Positions 56,522 through 64,000 of a stretch of 64,000 nucleotides of DNA are shown here, one piece after another; within the stretch, counting starts at the first letter, position 1, and each line of letters opens with the position of its first letter. The position numbers and the translations under genes are program-made. The stretch lies in assembly GCA_014376445.1 (NCBI GenBank), contig JACMRM010000091.1, positions 1 through 64,000 of the forward strand, read 5' to 3'. Under the pieces are notes generated by a model. It worked only from the letters and a program-made list of their open reading frames with translations. It did not search any database and had not been told where the DNA came from. This stretch comes from Bacteriovorax sp. (GTDB lineage Bacteria > Bdellovibrionota > Bacteriovoracia > Bacteriovoracales > Bacteriovoracaceae).

Positions 56522-58420
56522 ATGGCCAACCTGTTTTCAAATTTTAGAAATCCAAGAGTTGTTTTAGCTTTTGCCTACGACCTTCTTATTGCAGCCCTTT
56601 CATTCTGGGGTGCTCTCTATCTTCGATTTGATACTATGGATAATGCTCTCATAGACAACTTATCTTTCAATCGTTTTTTCTTCATGGCCATGGTTATTCA
56701 TTCAGCAAGTTTTGTTCTCAATGGCCTTTATAAAGGTGTGTGGCGCTTCAGTAGTATGTATGACCTTATCAGGGTTGTAAAAGCATCTGCCATCTCAGTA
56801 GTTTTGTCTTTGGTACTCTGTTTTTACATGACGAGACTTTATAATGTCCCAAGATCAATGTTTCTTATCGAATTTCTTTTGTTAGTAATCGGTTTAGGCG
56901 GCGGACGATTTATTTATAGATATTTGAAAGACCAGACATCACTTAGATCTATGATTGGAGGAGCTGATGCCGATGCAAAGAGCGTTCTAATTGTTGGGGC
57001 CGGCAGAGCTGGGGAGAAACTTTTACGTGATATTCATTCAACTCCAGCGCTGCAATTAAATGTAGTCGGATTTGTTGATGATGATAAATTTAAAAAAAAT
57101 GCTTTAATTCACAATGTAAAAGTATACGGTGGGGTAGAACTTATTCCTTCAATCGTAGCTAAAAATCTTGTAGACAAAATTTTTATTGCAATCCCTTCGT
57201 CTAACGGAGAGGAAGTTAAAAGAATTGTAGATTACTGCAAGCAAACATCTGCAGAAGTAAAAATCTTACCAAAGATGGACCAGCTTCTATCTAACCAGGT
57301 AGAACTTTCTTTACTAAGAAACCTGAACATCGAAGATTTACTTGGCCGAGACCAGGTAACACTTGATACTGCTCACTTACATACAATGATTACAAATAAA
57401 GTTGTACTAGTAACCGGTGCTGGCGGATCAATCGGTAGTGAGTTGTGTGCACAAATCGCAAAGTTCAATCCAAGCATGCTTGTTATGTGCGATTACTGTG
57501 AATTGTTCATGTACGAACTAGAAATGAAATTTAAAGAAGATTACCCTGAAGTTCCTTTCTTCCCAAAAATCGTCGATGTTAGAAATGCACATAAATTAGA
57601 TCAGGTTTTTGCAGAATATAGTCCACATATCGTTTTCCACGCGGCCGCGCACAAACATGTACCAATGATGGAACACAATCCAATCGAAGCAATCGAAACA
57701 AATATTAAAGGTACCAAGATTGTTGGTGAAGCAGCATTAAAGTATGGCGCTGAAAAATTCATCATGATCTCTACAGATAAAGCAGTAAACCCTACAAACG
57801 TAATGGGTGCGAGTAAGAGAATTGCTGAAATGGTTATTACTGATCTTTCCAAGAGAAGCAATACGACCAAGTTTATCTCAGTTCGATTCGGAAACGTTTT
57901 AGGTTCAAACGGTTCTGTAATTCCACTCTTCAGAAAGCAGATTGAAGAAGGGAAAGATATAACAGTTACTCATCCTGATATCATCCGCTACTTCATGTCT
58001 ATTCCTGAAGCCTGCCAGTTAGTTCTTCAGGCGGGTTCTATGGGAGAAGGAGGAGAAATCTTCGTTCTCGATATGGGAGAGCCTGTAAAGATTGTTGATC
58101 TTGCGAAAGAGATGATTCGACTTGCCGGAATGACAGAAGGAAAAGATATCAATATTGTTTTCTCAGGGCTGAGACCTGGAGAGAAATTATATGAAGAGCT
58201 TTTTAGTGATAAAGAAGCTTATGAGTTTACTCATCATGGGAAGATTCGTAAGGCGCTATTCAGAACGTTAGATGAGTCGTTTCATGCTCAGTTGAAGAAT
58301 TTAATCACGCTTGAATCTGCTGAACCGGATACAGTTGTTTATTTGATTAAAGAGATGGTGCCTGAGTTTACGCATTTTCGATTAAAAGCTGAAAACATCT
58401 TAGAGGAAGCGCAACAATAA
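56522..58420 (+). CDS. Membrane-bound UDP-HexNAc 4,6-dehydratase (WbpM/PglF/CapD family)
   Basis: N-terminal TM helices, two Rossmann folds (VLIVGAGRAGEKLLRDI; VVLVTGAGGSIGSELCAQI), STDKAVNPTNVMGASKR. Confidence 0.96.
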   Translation: MANLFSNFRNPRVVLAFAYDLLIAALSFWGALYLRFDTMDNALIDNLSFNRFFFMAMVIHSASFVLNGLYKGVWRFSSMYDLIRVVKASAISVVLSLVLCFYMTRLYNVPRSMFLIEFLLLVIGLGGGRFIYRYLKDQTSLRSMIGGADADAKSVLIVGAGRAGEKLLRDIHSTPALQLNVVGFVDDDKFKKNALIHNVKVYGGVELIPSIVAKNLVDKIFIAIPSSNGEEVKRIVDYCKQTSAEVKILPKMDQLLSNQVELSLLRNLNIEDLLGRDQVTLDTAHLHTMITNKVVLVTGAGGSIGSELCAQIAKFNPSMLVMCDYCELFMYELEMKFKEDYPEVPFFPKIVDVRNAHKLDQVFAEYSPHIVFHAAAHKHVPMMEHNPIEAIETNIKGTKIVGEAALKYGAEKFIMISTDKAVNPTNVMGASKRIAEMVITDLSKRSNTTKFISVRFGNVLGSNGSVIPLFRKQIEEGKDITVTHPDIIRYFMSIPEACQLVLQAGSMGEGGEIFVLDMGEPVKIVDLAKEMIRLAGMTEGKDINIVFSGLRPGEKLYEELFSDKEAYEFTHHGKIRKALFRTLDESFHAQLKNLITLESAEPDTVVYLIKEMVPEFTHFRLKAENILEEAQQ

Positions 58421-58523: not shown

Positions 58524-58889
58524 GGAGAAATCTTCGTTCTGGATATGGGCGAGCCGGTTAAGATTGTTGATCTTGCGAGAGGGATGATTCGCCTTGCGGG
58601 TATGACGGAAGGAGAAGATATCAATATTGTTTTTTCCGGCTTGAGACCAGGTGAGAAGCTTTTTGAAGAGTTGTTTAGTGATAAAGAAGCTTATGAGTTC
58701 ACTCATCACGGGAAGATTCGGAAGGCGTTTTTTAGAACGCTGGATGAATCGTTTCATGGGCAGTTGAAGAATTTAATTTAGTTAGAGTCTGCTGAGCCGG
58801 ATACTGTAGTTTATTTGATTAAAGAAATGGTGCCGGAGTTTACGCATTTTAGATTGAAGGCCGAAGTAGCGTTGGAAGAAACTCAGTAG
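58524..58889 (+). pseudogene. Truncated, diverged second copy of the wbpM/pglF-like 3' end
   Basis: Colinear with 58052-58420: [85 protein letters not shown]-stop-LESAEPDTVVYLIKEMVPEFTHFRLKAEVALEETQ*; in-frame TAG (58779-58781) replaces ACG (Thr). Confidence 0.93.
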
Positions 58890-59128
58890 TAGTTCAGTTT
58901 TTAATCGCAAATATTTATAAAAACCAAAAATACTATTAAAGAAATCGCAGACTTGAATCTCGAGTTGATCGACACGAGATGCAAACATAAAATTATTAAA
59001 TCCGTGTTGGCAAAATTGCCCACGAAGTGCTATTGTGCAGTTGTAAGTGATCAAGCGATCTGAAGGATTCGTTTTTTGTGATTGTATTGATGATCTTCAG
59101 GCAATTGGATTTTTACTTTGAGGTGTAC

Positions 59129-59410
59129 ATGAATCCATATGATATAGATTATAGCCAATTCAAAATCTCTAAAAAGATTACTGACGAAAGAGATCTTTTG
59201 AAATTAAGACTTTTATCTCAACTAAGAATGATTATGGACAAGATGGAGAATTCCGAAATTTTAGATATTACGGGCCTTGATAAATCAGATTTATCACGTC
59301 TTCGCATCGGAAGTTTTGAAAGATTTTCTATAGACAGGCTTATTAAAATTTTTGACCAACTAGGGTTTAAAGTTGAATTTTCATTTACAAAAAAGAGGAA
59401 GAATTCTTAA
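59129..59410 (+). CDS. Small XRE/HigA-like helix-turn-helix protein
   Basis: MNPYDIDYSQFKISKKITDERDLLKLRLLSQLRMIMDKMENSEILDITGLDKSDLSRLRIGSFERFSIDRLIKIFDQLGFKVEFSFTKKRKNS; ATG 59129 preceded by gaggtg; resembles HigA-type DNA-binding domains. Confidence 0.7.
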   Translation: MNPYDIDYSQFKISKKITDERDLLKLRLLSQLRMIMDKMENSEILDITGLDKSDLSRLRIGSFERFSIDRLIKIFDQLGFKVEFSFTKKRKNS

Positions 59411-59755: not shown

Positions 59756-59980
59756 ATGAAACGAAATTTACTACTATTTTTGTCAACTTTCTTGCCAATG
59801 ATTTCATTTGCATCAAGTGAGATCCCTAGAAATATTAATAAAATTTCAATAAATAACCCAAGTGCGGAGCAATCATTATTTGAAAAATTAGAGTATCGTG
59901 GAAGAGTTGAAACAAGGGATGCTGCAGATTCTGGAAGATCTACAGGGGGCGGTCATCATTGTGTAACTACAGAAAAATGA
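59756..59980 (+). CDS. Secreted small peptide, candidate precursor of the YcaO-linked system
   Basis: 74 aa: MKRNLLLFLSTFLPMISFASS (Sec-like signal) EIPRNINKISINNPSAEQSLFEKLEYRGRVETRDAADSGRSTGGGHHCVTTEK; strong RBS aaggaga at 59745-59751; TGA overlaps next ATG (ATGA at 59977-59980). Confidence 0.75.
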   Translation: MKRNLLLFLSTFLPMISFASSEIPRNINKISINNPSAEQSLFEKLEYRGRVETRDAADSGRSTGGGHHCVTTEK

Positions 59981-61497
59981 TTTTAGAAAATAAAAATAAG
60001 CTGATGCTAATAATGTTTATTACTATCATAATAAGCATTAGTTTAATTTTAAAATCTAAACTTGATGACAAGGCTGATATAATGAAAATCAATATTGGAT
60101 ATGAATTTAATTCGTCTGCAAAAACTTTGGACCCATCCAAAATTGAAGATATATATCAATCTAATTTAATCGAAAATCTATATAGTAGAATTATCGAATA
60201 CGATACAAAGGGAAATTTAACTTGTGTTTTGTGCAAGAAATTCTGGATAGAAAAATCAACAATTGTGTTCGAATTTAGAAATGATATTAAAACTATTGAT
60301 GGAATTGTTATTTCAGCAGACGATGCAAAGCTCTCTTATCAAAGGTTGATAAATTCTAAAACAAATACTCACGGAAATTTTTCTAACTTTATTGATATTG
60401 AGAATAGTAATTCAATAAGTACAGTTGGAAATATTTTAAGAATAGAAGTTCTAAAGCCTCATTATGTACAATTCGTGCTTCCACTTTTGGCCAGTATGGA
60501 TTTTTCAATAATAACATCAAAGGCAATCGACGAGGAAAAAAAACTAGGTTATTTAGAGCTCAGGAATACATCTGGGCCATATTATTTAAAGCAAGACGAT
60601 GAAAGCGGAAAACTAATCTTGCACGCAAATTTACATCATCCATTTTATAGTAAAAGTATGGCACAAGAAATTAATATTGTGCCAGTGGTTTATGGGCACG
60701 GTATTGATGACTTTCTAGATGATAAGATTGATGTTTTAGATGTTACTTATTATCCAAGTTTACCTCAATATGAAAGACTATTTAATCAAAAAATTAAAAA
60801 ATTTAATGCACATAAAACACTTCTAATTAATGTCTTTTTAATAAATTTTTCTTTAAGGGCCAACAAGAAATTTACATCAGAGCAACTTTTTTATGCAGGC
60901 TCAATTGTTAGTGATATTTGTAAGGGATTTAAGAAATATGGATATGGTTTTCAAGATGTATTTGAATTTTTCCAATCTACTGGTACAGGACATTTGAATG
61001 AATCTCAAATTGAGCATCTAAAAAAATTACGATTGGTAGATAAAAAAATTAATTTTACTACACCTATTGAATTAGGTGTAAGTCAGATTGTCTTTGAAAA
61101 AATGAAAAAAGCATTTGAACAATATCCCGAGATTAAAGTTAGGTCATTTCCAATAGATCCCGCATCAATGCCAGCTGAGGAACGCCCCGACATGTATTTA
61201 CAAACAACTGATTCTAGTTTTAATGAGGACATTTCTTTAATGAGTTATAACTTTTCTATGGGGTACTTTGGGACTAGCAAAATTGAAGGTGATAACTGGA
61301 TAAAAGATTTTAGTGATTTACCCAACAAGGAAGATAGAGTTAAAAAACTGCAAAATTTTCAATTAAACTTACTTGAAAAACCTATAATTATGCCTATAGG
61401 TGCATCACCTTATTGGGCAATTGCTAGGGAAGACTTAGAATTAAATTTCGCTGAAAATTTTCCTGGGAGTTCTTGGTGGAAGATACGAAAAAAATAA
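59977..61497 (+). CDS. Oligopeptide-binding-like extracellular solute-binding protein (SBP_bac_5/OppA-like), N-terminally anchored or exported
   Basis: NKLMLIMFITIIISISLIL TM/signal; INIGYEFNSSAKTLDPSKIEDIYQSNLIENLYSRIIEYDTKGNLTCVLCKKFWIEKSTIVFEFRNDIKTIDGIVISADDAKLSYQRL. ORF track TTG (59959) is less likely than ATG 59977. Confidence 0.8.
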   Translation: MILENKNKLMLIMFITIIISISLILKSKLDDKADIMKINIGYEFNSSAKTLDPSKIEDIYQSNLIENLYSRIIEYDTKGNLTCVLCKKFWIEKSTIVFEFRNDIKTIDGIVISADDAKLSYQRLINSKTNTHGNFSNFIDIENSNSISTVGNILRIEVLKPHYVQFVLPLLASMDFSIITSKAIDEEKKLGYLELRNTSGPYYLKQDDESGKLILHANLHHPFYSKSMAQEINIVPVVYGHGIDDFLDDKIDVLDVTYYPSLPQYERLFNQKIKKFNAHKTLLINVFLINFSLRANKKFTSEQLFYAGSIVSDICKGFKKYGYGFQDVFEFFQSTGTGHLNESQIEHLKKLRLVDKKINFTTPIELGVSQIVFEKMKKAFEQYPEIKVRSFPIDPASMPAEERPDMYLQTTDSSFNEDISLMSYNFSMGYFGTSKIEGDNWIKDFSDLPNKEDRVKKLQNFQLNLLEKPIIMPIGASPYWAIAREDLELNFAENFPGSSWWKIRKK

Positions 61498-62441
61498 TTA
61501 ACTGGTCATTGGAAAATGCTGATCTATTATCATTAAAAGTAGAATATTATACAGGTTTAAGAAAAATATTTCCTCATATTTTCGATATTGGAATTTTTAT
61601 TGAAGTAGAAGGTAAAGTATCACATGGTCGTGGCACTGATGACTTTGAGGAAGTAGCTTACGCAAAAGCATTGTCTGAGGCTTTAGAAAGAGCATCAATA
61701 AATTACTTCAATATTAAAAATACAAATGGCCTGGCAGTTCACTTTGACATTGATTCTGCTAAGAAAAATGGACGAGAAGAATTACTTGAAAGAGATGCAT
61801 TTCTCTGTCATTTTCTTTTGGGCAAAGGTTTTATTGAAAGGAATCCTTTTAATAATAAATTTAATTTTGAACATTTAAGTAATCAAAATATTTCTATAAA
61901 ATTTTTTGAGATGTGTAGATATCAAGATGGAGTTGGCATACTTTGTATTGCTAATGGAGAAAGCTTTAAGCGTCCTTTTGGTAATATTTTTGGAAGTGCT
62001 TTTGGAGATAATGAGGAAATTGTTTTCAAAAAAGCTTATATTGAGGTTTTAAGACTCGTTATGCATATAAAAGATAAAGAAATTGTTTCAATTAATTTAG
62101 CTAAATTTAAAGAATTAGAAAAATATAACTTTTCTGACCATGGAAAGTTATCTTTGGATCTAGAGTACTCAAAAAAAATTAATTCCTTTATTAATGAAAA
62201 TGTTTTAGATATGACAAAAGAAGTTCAAAGTGAAGACTTTCAATATGAAATTCTTGATTTAAGTCTTATTCCGTTACCTAACCTACCATTACATATAGTT
62301 TGGACTAGAAACTTCAAACTTCAAAACCTCTTTACTGGAAAAAGTGAAGAGACAAAAATAAATATGAAACGTCTTTCTCAAGTAAGTAATTGCGTTATAG
62401 AGTTTAAAAATATTAATTCGTTCCCACACCCTTTTGACTAA
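61476..62441 (+). CDS. YcaO-domain protein
   Basis: VSHGRGTDDFEEVAYAKALSEALERASINYF and KKNGREELLERDAFLCHFLLGKGFIER (YcaO SxxxE/ExxER-type motifs), FGNIFGSAFGDNEEIVFKKAYIEVLRL; GTG 61476 preceded by GGGAG (TTG 61473 also possible). Confidence 0.85.
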   Translation: MEDTKKIINWSLENADLLSLKVEYYTGLRKIFPHIFDIGIFIEVEGKVSHGRGTDDFEEVAYAKALSEALERASINYFNIKNTNGLAVHFDIDSAKKNGREELLERDAFLCHFLLGKGFIERNPFNNKFNFEHLSNQNISIKFFEMCRYQDGVGILCIANGESFKRPFGNIFGSAFGDNEEIVFKKAYIEVLRLVMHIKDKEIVSINLAKFKELEKYNFSDHGKLSLDLEYSKKINSFINENVLDMTKEVQSEDFQYEILDLSLIPLPNLPLHIVWTRNFKLQNLFTGKSEETKINMKRLSQVSNCVIEFKNINSFPHPFD

Positions 62442-63940
62442 TGAAAATTAAAAATTTTTGGAAAAAATCAATTACTAGGTTTGCAATATTTCAAATTACA
62501 CTTCTTGTTATCCTTATTGCTGTATTTAGCTTGTTCGGCTCGTACTCAAGAAAATCACAGGCGGATCTCCTTAGTTCAACAGTGAGAAATAGTTTTTTAA
62601 CGGGAGATAATAGGAATGTAATTAATTCTTTAAGCAGTACAATTAATAATAATTTTGGACTTATTGTTGTTTACAATATTAAAGGCGAAGAAATTTTTAA
62701 AATTGGTGACGAAAATGCTAGGGAAAATTTTTTTACTAAAGTGCATACGTATGAAGTACTTGCCAATTTAGACTTCTCTCAATCTTCAGTAGGAAAAATT
62801 GTATACTATTATAGTTTATTTATTTTTTTAAAAAATAGTATATTGGTATGGTTGATATTTTTAGGAGTCAGCTTGCCTTTTTTAATTTTTGAAAAAAGAC
62901 GTTTGGAACAGATACATCAAGACCAATTAAGGCATTTGAAGATTGAAACAGCTAAACAAATCACTGAACAAATGTCTCATGATATTCGATCTCCTTTAGC
63001 AGTCTTAAGAAATGTAATTGAAGATATTACAAATGTTTCTAACATAGACTTGCTAATTTTAAATCATGCAATAACAAGAATAGATGAAATAGCTCAAGAT
63101 ATTCTAGAAACCAGAGACAGGGATAATCTTGATAATGTAAAATTAATTAACATAAACAAAATTTTAGAATCTATTATTACAGATAAAAAAATTCAATTTA
63201 AAAAATTAGACAATATAGAAATTGTTTTTTCAAACTACAACGAAATATTATTTTCAGAAATTAACTCAATTAATTTTTACAGGATAATATCAAACATAAT
63301 TAACAATTCAGTAGAATCCATAAAAGAACATGGGAAGGTCTACATTGAACTGACAAAACTGAATAATAATGCTTTAATTTTTATTAAAGATAATGGAAAA
63401 GGTATACCTGAAGAAATTTTAAGTAGAATTGGCCAGCGTGGCTTTTCATTCGCTAAGTCTGGCTCTGGGTTAGGACTTTCTCATGCTAAGAACAATATTG
63501 AGCTCTGGAATGGTCAACTAGAAGTTACTTCAAAACTAGGATCCGGAACTGAGATTAAAATATCAATCCCATTAAAAAATGATTTTACCAACGCTTTACA
63601 TATAGAAGATAAAGATGAATATGAATATGAATATGTTTATATCGACAATGATGAATTGTTACGTTTAGTTTGGGATGAAATTGCAATTAAGAAAAAAATA
63701 AATTTGATAACTTTGAAATCTCCTGCTGAATTTGATATCAACAGTAAAAAATTTAGCAAAGAATTTACGAAAATATATCTTGATAGTGATTTTGGTAAAG
63801 ATATAATAAGAGGTGAGGATTTTGCTATAATGTTGCATGAAGAAGGTTACAAATATATTTTTATATCTACAGGTTATGGGCCAGAAAAATTTTCTCATCT
63901 TCCTTGGCTGAAATATGCTGGAAAAAAGTGCCCACTTTAA
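62441..63940 (+). CDS. Hybrid sensor histidine kinase with C-terminal receiver (REC) domain
   Basis: Two TM helices with short extracytoplasmic segment; QMSHDIRSPLAVL H-box, NIINNSVESI N-box, DNGKGIPEEILSRIGQRGFSFAKSGSGLGLSHAKNNIE; C-term YIDNDELLRLVWDEI..IYLDSDFGKDIIRGEDFAIMLHEEGYKYIFISTGY..AGKKCPL fits REC acidic pocket, Asp, Thr and Lys. TAATG overlap with the YcaO gene. Confidence 0.9.
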   Translation: MKIKNFWKKSITRFAIFQITLLVILIAVFSLFGSYSRKSQADLLSSTVRNSFLTGDNRNVINSLSSTINNNFGLIVVYNIKGEEIFKIGDENARENFFTKVHTYEVLANLDFSQSSVGKIVYYYSLFIFLKNSILVWLIFLGVSLPFLIFEKRRLEQIHQDQLRHLKIETAKQITEQMSHDIRSPLAVLRNVIEDITNVSNIDLLILNHAITRIDEIAQDILETRDRDNLDNVKLININKILESIITDKKIQFKKLDNIEIVFSNYNEILFSEINSINFYRIISNIINNSVESIKEHGKVYIELTKLNNNALIFIKDNGKGIPEEILSRIGQRGFSFAKSGSGLGLSHAKNNIELWNGQLEVTSKLGSGTEIKISIPLKNDFTNALHIEDKDEYEYEYVYIDNDELLRLVWDEIAIKKKINLITLKSPAEFDINSKKFSKEFTKIYLDSDFGKDIIRGEDFAIMLHEEGYKYIFISTGYGPEKFSHLPWLKYAGKKCPL

Positions 63941-63975: not shown

Positions 63976-64000
63976 ATGACTCTTCAAGATAAACTAGTAG
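63976..64000 (+). other. Possible start of next gene (MTLQDKLV...), truncated by window
   Basis: ATG at 63976 with an open frame to the window end, 35 nt after the HK stop; too short to assign. Confidence 0.25.

Follow-up and report, generated by a model that had tools for sequence, protein, structure and literature searches.

A conserved peptide, binding protein, YcaO and kinase cassette of Bdellovibrionota, apparently undescribed, that may form a modified-peptide sensing relay

Why should a small peptide gene, an oligopeptide-binding protein, a YcaO enzyme and a hybrid histidine kinase be locked into a single operon in a bacterium of the Bdellovibrio group? The question is raised by a coupled operon on the plus strand, at positions 59756–63940 of the window, by which we mean the whole stretch of 64,000 nucleotides analysed here (positions 1 to 64,000 of contig JACMRM010000091.1 from Bacteriovorax sp., assembly GCA_014376445.1). 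Every open reading frame (ORF) and junction of the four-gene layout given in a preliminary description was reproduced when the sequence was read again: the genes for the peptide and the solute-binding protein (SBP) overlap through ATGA (59977–59980), the SBP gene, which stops at 61497, overlaps that of YcaO by 25 nt (TTG start at 61473) or 22 nt (GTG start at 61476), and the YcaO/kinase junction is TAATG (62439–62443). The reading we favour, at a probability of about 0.62, is that the operon encodes an autoinducing peptide that would be modified by YcaO, exported by the Sec pathway and detected by a relay of anchored OppA/PrgZ-like receptor, kinase and sigma-54 activator. The features on which this reading draws are as follows.

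59756..59980, plus strand: gene for a putative precursor of 74 residues (Sec signal peptide, leader-like segment and C-terminal core with one Cys)
59756..59812, plus strand: predicted Sec signal peptide, residues 1–19, MKRNLLLFLSTFLPMISFA, read from sequence (hydropathy maximum 2.3 over 12 residues; predicted cleavage site)
59876..59908, plus strand: leader-like motif LFEKLEYRGRV, residues 41–51, which fits the h..h...G.h element of other cassette peptides
59960..59962, plus strand: codon of core Cys69 (GGGHHCVTTEK), the likely modification site
59977..61497, plus strand: SBP_bac_5 (OppA/PrgZ-like) peptide-binding protein, membrane-anchored, with its anchor helix near the N-terminus
61473..62441, plus strand: divergent stand-alone YcaO with E69xxER, NGxAxH, E103xxER, E191 and C-terminal PHPF
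62441..63940, plus strand: hybrid histidine kinase with transmembrane segments 14–32 and 132–150, a periplasmic loop of about 100 residues, His180, HATPase_c and a C-terminal receiver-like domain
62978..62980, plus strand: codon of the kinase phosphoacceptor His180 (HDIRSP), present in 61 of 61 kinases

The arrangement is not peculiar to this genome. A family YcaO profile built from 16 sequences and run against 369 Bdellovibrionota genomes at a threshold of E<=1e-5 matches 120 of them, not all matches being complete cassettes, and the cassette may be present in up to about a third of the species of the Bdellovibrio group. Among 78 loci taken around the best YcaO matches, and picked by YcaO score alone, an SBP gene adjoins the YcaO gene on the same strand in 67, nearly always with the kinase gene as well; a lack of synteny elsewhere had been set beforehand as grounds for giving up the proposed system, and the pairing proved to be phylum-wide. 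Two gene orders are found, peptide–SBP–YcaO–kinase (type I; 51 loci and the window) and YcaO–peptide–SBP–kinase (type II; 16 loci). In the type I loci of other genomes the SBP and YcaO genes overlap or lie no more than 10 nt apart in 51 of 51, the commonest overlap being 22 nt (17 loci), and the same holds for YcaO and kinase in 49 of 50 and for peptide and SBP in 43 of 47, so close a coupling that it exceeds chance. Across the 61 gene sets complete enough for comparison, the window's included, the distances of SBP, YcaO and kinase correlate (Mantel r 0.67–0.70, with permuted maxima of 0.14–0.22), and these genes therefore travel together. The SBP tree sets 40 main type I rows apart from type II and places 7 more type I rows beside it, while several genomes hold 2–5 YcaO copies by the family profile. 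Loci L025, L030, L092, L096 and L105–L107 were not counted, neither SBP nor kinase being seen beside their family YcaO; L089 and L125, truncated at contig ends or incomplete, were left out, and L036, which has a long YcaO of another type, was set aside. A search with a narrower YcaO alignment motif returned 15 loci, of which those with specific titles belong to Bdellovibrionota groups and the others are called just 'Proteobacteria'; the carriers named in its GTDB-based records include Bacteriovoracaceae, Bdellovibrionaceae, Bdellovibrionales, Oligoflexia and Silvanigrella, relatives that place the window's genome in the same phylum, and a scan of genome contigs with the window YcaO as a single sequence gave no matches. 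As far as this narrow motif reaches, the cassette is likely confined to Bdellovibrionota.

The enzyme is a divergent member of its superfamily, scoring 20.5 bits against Pfam YcaO, under the cut-off of 25.7, and showing a weak SagD likeness in NCBIfam. It is recovered by the family profile, its AlphaFold2 model has a pLDDT of 91, and the first 41 PDB matches to that model in Foldseek are all YcaO or YcaO-type heterocyclase chains; E69, R73, E103, E106 and R107, which belong to the ATP/Mg-binding ExxER ... ExxER glutamate motifs, are kept in 61 of 61 sequences. The family profile, the conserved motifs and the predicted fold together assign the window protein to the YcaO superfamily. Its C-terminal PHPx is conserved in part (P318 in 39, H319 in 44 and P320 in 33 of 61), the full PxPxP not being reached, and the best non-archaeal matches are azoline-forming enzymes (the SagD model; McbD, LynD and TruD). 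The genome of the window, G000, also encodes a long E. coli-type YcaO of 730 residues (G000:C143:14813-15808; L001/L038) that scores above the Pfam cut-off; it is of a different family, unrelated to the cassette, and was set aside. Two orphan members of the family lie in other surroundings. At L025:9026-9439 (G022) the YcaO gene stands beside a glycosyltransferase-like gene and a 137-residue protein which has no Pfam match and resembles a PqqD-like domain with a Cys-ending tail (SSSYCDST) fused to it, possibly a cluster of a different type of ribosomally synthesized and post-translationally modified peptide (RiPP), with the precursor fused to a RiPP recognition element (RRE). At L030:7368-9082 (G017) it is followed by a cupin-like gene of 289 residues, with no SBP or kinase beside it, possibly as part of another pathway.

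What would the enzyme act on? A precursor gene with a leader and a variable core lies near the YcaO gene, which is how RiPP clusters are recognized, and the putative precursors (48–171 residues) were chosen by position and hydrophobic N-terminus. Of 48 type I peptides, 28 have a C-terminal Cys with an h..h...[GN].h element ahead of it; by a regular expression written after inspection of the peptides, 0.8 of 48 would be expected after shuffling, with a maximum of 4 in 1000 shuffles. The spacing from element to Cys is exactly 10 residues in 18 of these 28, and G-[ST]-[IV]-C is preferred. In type II, GG[AS][ST]C or PSCWT is a frequent core sequence. Cores usually hold a single Cys. Ratios of dN/dS between 0.05 and 0.30 (8 pairs with usable dS) indicate that the predicted peptides are under purifying selection, and in the pair L077/L081 the peptide is 81% identical compared with 63% for YcaO, its last 18 residues being the same. 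Given the gene coupling, the leader geometry and the conserved active sites, the peptide is very probably the substrate of the YcaO. In L034, L035 and L037, which are full SBP–YcaO–kinase cassettes, a near-identical Cys-less peptide of 64 residues ending in SSVSDGSKTEKASK is under strong purifying selection, which suggests modification on Ser/Thr or on the backbone.

The partners of the enzyme are likely to do the sensing. The window SBP scores 33.7 bits against Pfam SBP_bac_5 (cut-off 32.4), and its profile finds the oligopeptide receptors OppA3, AapF, MppA, OppA and PrgZ in the PDB, the last a sex-pheromone receptor to which it aligns over 6–490, nearly full length; by sequence profile it belongs to the OppA family, as do PrgZ-type receptors. 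It has an N-terminal membrane helix, and nine other SBPs have a lipobox-like site. The kinase part of the hybrid histidine kinase announced in the preliminary description stands (HATPase_c, Pfam 9e-20; His180), while its receiver domain is read from C-terminal motifs (YIDND, LDSD, GKKCP) and has no Pfam match. All 61 kinases keep His180, N285, N289, G319 and G341, and most have two transmembrane segments and a periplasmic loop of 78–130 residues, in which a D-x-R is frequent (D in 39 and R in 46 of 61). Both parts of a two-component system, an intact HisKA/HATPase kinase and a cognate response regulator, are found, the regulator not being adjacent in the window. On the strength of the co-divergence and of the receptor family, the peptide is probably the ligand of the SBP and kinase.

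Such a regulator gene, of NtrC type (receiver and sigma-54 AAA+ domains, in some also a Fis helix-turn-helix), is adjacent in 35 of 67 cassettes; in type I loci it lies upstream (24 of 51), in type II loci downstream (11 of 16). Strict −24/−12 sites stand at the operon head in 6 of the 16 type II loci and in 4 of the 24 type I loci led by the regulator gene, where mononucleotide shuffles give 0.01 expected in each, a few of the loci being close relatives. The conjunction of regulator and site at the operon head suggests autoinduction in those loci, and we lean towards autoinduction through sigma-54 wherever both are present.

A further association is with conjugation. The flanks of 14 cassette loci hold TraC, TraL and TrbC/VirB2-type (pilin) genes; in two of them an integrase or resolvase is found close by. 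A search for the TraC family in 25 cassette-bearing genomes, about half of them picked because the link had already been seen, found TraC in 17. Of the 39 YcaO places in these 17 genomes, 26 have a TraC gene no more than 20 kb away, compared with 1.5 expected; in the TraC-positive genomes picked without a prior link (G070, G057, G053, G225, G246, G183 and G009) 9 of 15 do. TraC was not found in G000, a 3.41 Mb draft that is 87.8% complete, and the window copy is chromosomal and adjoins ung. Because genomes in which TraC was not detected, G000 included, keep the cassette, conjugation is one deployment rather than part of its definition. That the linked copies control transfer, as the linkage may indicate, has about even odds. 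At L101:12026-15551 a cassette that adjoins F-type transfer genes has a RecD2-like helicase and a phage-type integrase beside it; this is probably an integrative conjugative element. This link, the type II order and the sigma-54 regulator are additions to what had been described from the single window.

Beyond these regulators and, in a subset, transfer genes, nothing recurs widely beside the cassette. Clustering of 553 flanking ORFs gave no recurring unassigned family that might be a partner of permease, E1-like, TfuA or peptidase type, in line with the earlier remark that none of these is visible in the window. No E1-like/ocin-ThiF or RRE gene lies between cassette members and no extra flanking family recurs, E1 and RRE profiles having been run on part of the flanking ORFs, and no unassigned family that might be TfuA recurs with the cassette, in a clustering that did not use TfuA's own profile. 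An ATPase motif of ABC type occurs within 7 kb in 2 of 63 loci, with no recurring permease family beside the SBP. By these results the cassette qualifies neither as an azoline (thiazole/oxazole-modified microcin, TOMM) cluster, for want of the partner, nor as an ABC importer, for want of the permease; a role in defence finds no PADLOC match.

The pathway that we infer would begin with a precursor in which a Sec signal peptide is followed by a leader-like element (h..h...G.h) and, at the C-terminus, by a Cys core. The stand-alone YcaO, with ATP/Mg, would modify this core in the cytoplasm, most likely by turning Cys into thiazoline (a chemistry that could as well be right as wrong), a backbone thioamide or amidine being less likely. 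The modified peptide would then leave by Sec and be processed, bind the membrane-anchored OppA/PrgZ-like protein in the periplasm and, through it, engage the short periplasmic loop of the kinase. The kinase would phosphorylate the NtrC-type sigma-54 activator, presumably encoded elsewhere in the window's genome, and this would activate the cassette itself in several species, and probably also the transfer genes where the cassette sits in a conjugative module. The content, order and coupling of the genes, the conserved active sites, the anatomy of the precursors and the selection on them, the co-divergence, the sigma-54 regulators and promoters and the linkage to tra genes can be read from sequence, whereas the modification, its timing before export, the ligand, the contact between SBP and kinase and the targets are inferred. 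A modified-peptide sensing circuit, as first suggested for the window, fits the precursor anatomy, the YcaO residues, the co-divergence of SBP, YcaO and kinase, and the sigma-54 regulators and promoters.

Several observations weigh against this pathway. The signal peptide was partly a selection criterion for the precursors, the C-terminal pattern was not. The window peptide is atypical, with 17 residues from leader motif to Cys69 compared with the commonest 10, and the residues before its Cys69 differ from the usual [ST]-I. Some peptides have no Cys (L022, L034/L035/L037, L102, L110), so that Cys cyclization is not universal, and there is no E1-like or RRE partner, though most azoline-forming YcaOs use one. 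Since no −24/−12 site lies in front of the peptide gene where the regulator gene comes first, and the window operon has neither an adjacent response regulator nor a sigma-54 site, sigma-54 control is claimed for a subset only.

Could the modified peptide be mainly an effector, a metal-binding, antimicrobial or anti-competitor RiPP, with the SBP–kinase pair serving feedback from the product and not communication? Bufferins, for example, are Sec-exported Cys RiPPs and bind copper (PMC12452194), nisin-type RiPPs are generally known to autoinduce through a kinase, and the SBP profile weakly reaches MbnE, a methanobactin-related SBP. However, exporter, immunity, detoxification and uptake families do not recur beside the cassette, the usual single core Cys offers little for chelation, and it is the sensing genes that are the constant part, which makes such a role unlikely. 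The receptor might instead sense an outside peptide, prey-derived or from murein, with the YcaO-modified peptide as its periplasmic antagonist or cofactor: the matches of the SBP profile to MppA and OppA are no worse than that to PrgZ, the hosts are predators that, as is generally known, release prey peptides, and PrgZ itself takes both inducer and inhibitor (PMC7117660). The tightly conserved core segment and fixed leader-to-Cys geometry suggest, however, a specific matched ligand, and the peptide gene is coupled directly to the receptor gene in the great majority of type I loci (43 of 47, as above); we find this alternative quite improbable. Hardest to credit is a YcaO that forms no heterocycle on the peptide and is an ATP-dependent peptidase or works on some other protein, the SBP or the kinase for instance. 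The Foldseek and profile matches do include MusD, a YcaO for which ATP-dependent peptidase activity has been reported (title of 7u58), and E. coli YcaO carries an annotation as accessory factor in the modification of ribosomal protein S12, but the azoline formers noted above are the best non-archaeal matches, and SBP and kinase are periplasmic or membrane proteins.

An exported, YcaO-modified pheromone would combine traits of several known systems. LuxPQ and TorT–TorS are likewise SBP-activated sensor kinases, a class with small-molecule ligands, whereas in the cassette a probable peptide ligand and the enzyme that would modify it come from the same operon. In BctC–BctE, too, a periplasmic binding protein relays ligand state to a membrane kinase, and about ten cases in which SBP-bound ligands activate sensor kinases have been characterized (PMC9602780). 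Enterococcal pCF10 (PrgZ/PrgX) shares a dedicated OppA-family receptor for a small peptide, PrgZ being its pheromone receptor, and many cassettes adjoin conjugation genes; its peptide, however, is not modified by a YcaO, and PrgZ passes it to Opp for import, to be read by PrgX in the cytoplasm (PMC7117660), whereas the cassette combines a YcaO with a kinase and a sigma-54 activator and lacks a permease. RiPP precursors with Sec signals are described as rare, and export has been demonstrated experimentally for bufferins only, whose signal-peptide-bearing Cys precursor is likewise thought to be modified before export, but by multinuclear non-haem iron-dependent oxidative (MNIO) enzymes with DUF2063 partners and for a copper function (PMC12452194). 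In NisRK-type autoinduction, which is general knowledge, nisin as a ribosomal, enzyme-modified peptide induces its own operon through a histidine kinase; the cassette differs in its enzyme class, Sec export, SBP co-receptor, sigma-54 output, Gram-negative hosts and lack of immunity genes. The stand-alone YcaO clusters of bottromycin and streptamidine resemble it in a YcaO without fused E1 or RRE domain, and to our knowledge no signal peptide, SBP or kinase has been reported in them. They are actinobacterial and have other tailoring genes such as a hydrolase, and the bottromycin YcaOs act without a partner protein (PMC8442711).

No description of the cassette was found in NCBIfam, Pfam, PADLOC or the open-access literature, outside which lie subscription papers and most preprints; there, nothing on this system turned up for YcaO in combination with Bdellovibrio, nor for YcaO together with histidine kinase plus solute-binding protein, in keeping with the earlier claim of an undescribed system. 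The cassette is conserved and, it appears, undescribed. We know of no peptide pheromone system in Bdellovibrionota and of no YcaO enzyme assigned to signalling. The cassette resembles peptide quorum sensing with a RiPP-type ligand and has a fair chance of meriting a separate class; whether that class would be phylum-wide, of YcaO-modified, Sec-exported pheromones read by an OppA/PrgZ-like receptor–kinase–sigma-54 relay, with several specificities per genome and many members controlling conjugative transfer, seems to us evenly balanced. If true, it would bring a further enzyme class, export route and receptor chain to RiPP-based signalling, and it bears on the ways in which these predators perceive one another and on the timing of transfer of their mobile elements. 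It also supplies testable precursor–receptor pairs, several in some genomes, and a YcaO without E1 or RRE partner beside a precursor with a short fixed distance from leader to Cys.

Around the operon, one further feature marks its downstream limit.

63976..64000, plus strand: start of the next gene, outside the cassette, which reads as uracil-DNA glycosylase (ung) and extends to about 64653 on the contig

The preliminary description had allowed that downstream genes might reveal a characterized YcaO pathway; the next gene is ung, the contig stops 730 nt beyond the window, and the kinase is therefore the last gene of the operon. A gene for ung lies within a few kb of the cassette also in L021, L022 and L026, which makes it a conserved neighbour. 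Upstream, at 59078–59410, is a small HTH_37 regulator gene (Pfam E 8e-10), for which no fixed place was seen in other cassettes. Between the polysaccharide locus and the operon there is a partial duplication, possibly an insertion scar: 359 nt at 58530–58890, shortly after a polysaccharide nucleotide-sugar dehydratase gene (56522–58420), are 83% identical to the 3′ end of that gene and carry a frame-breaking stop.

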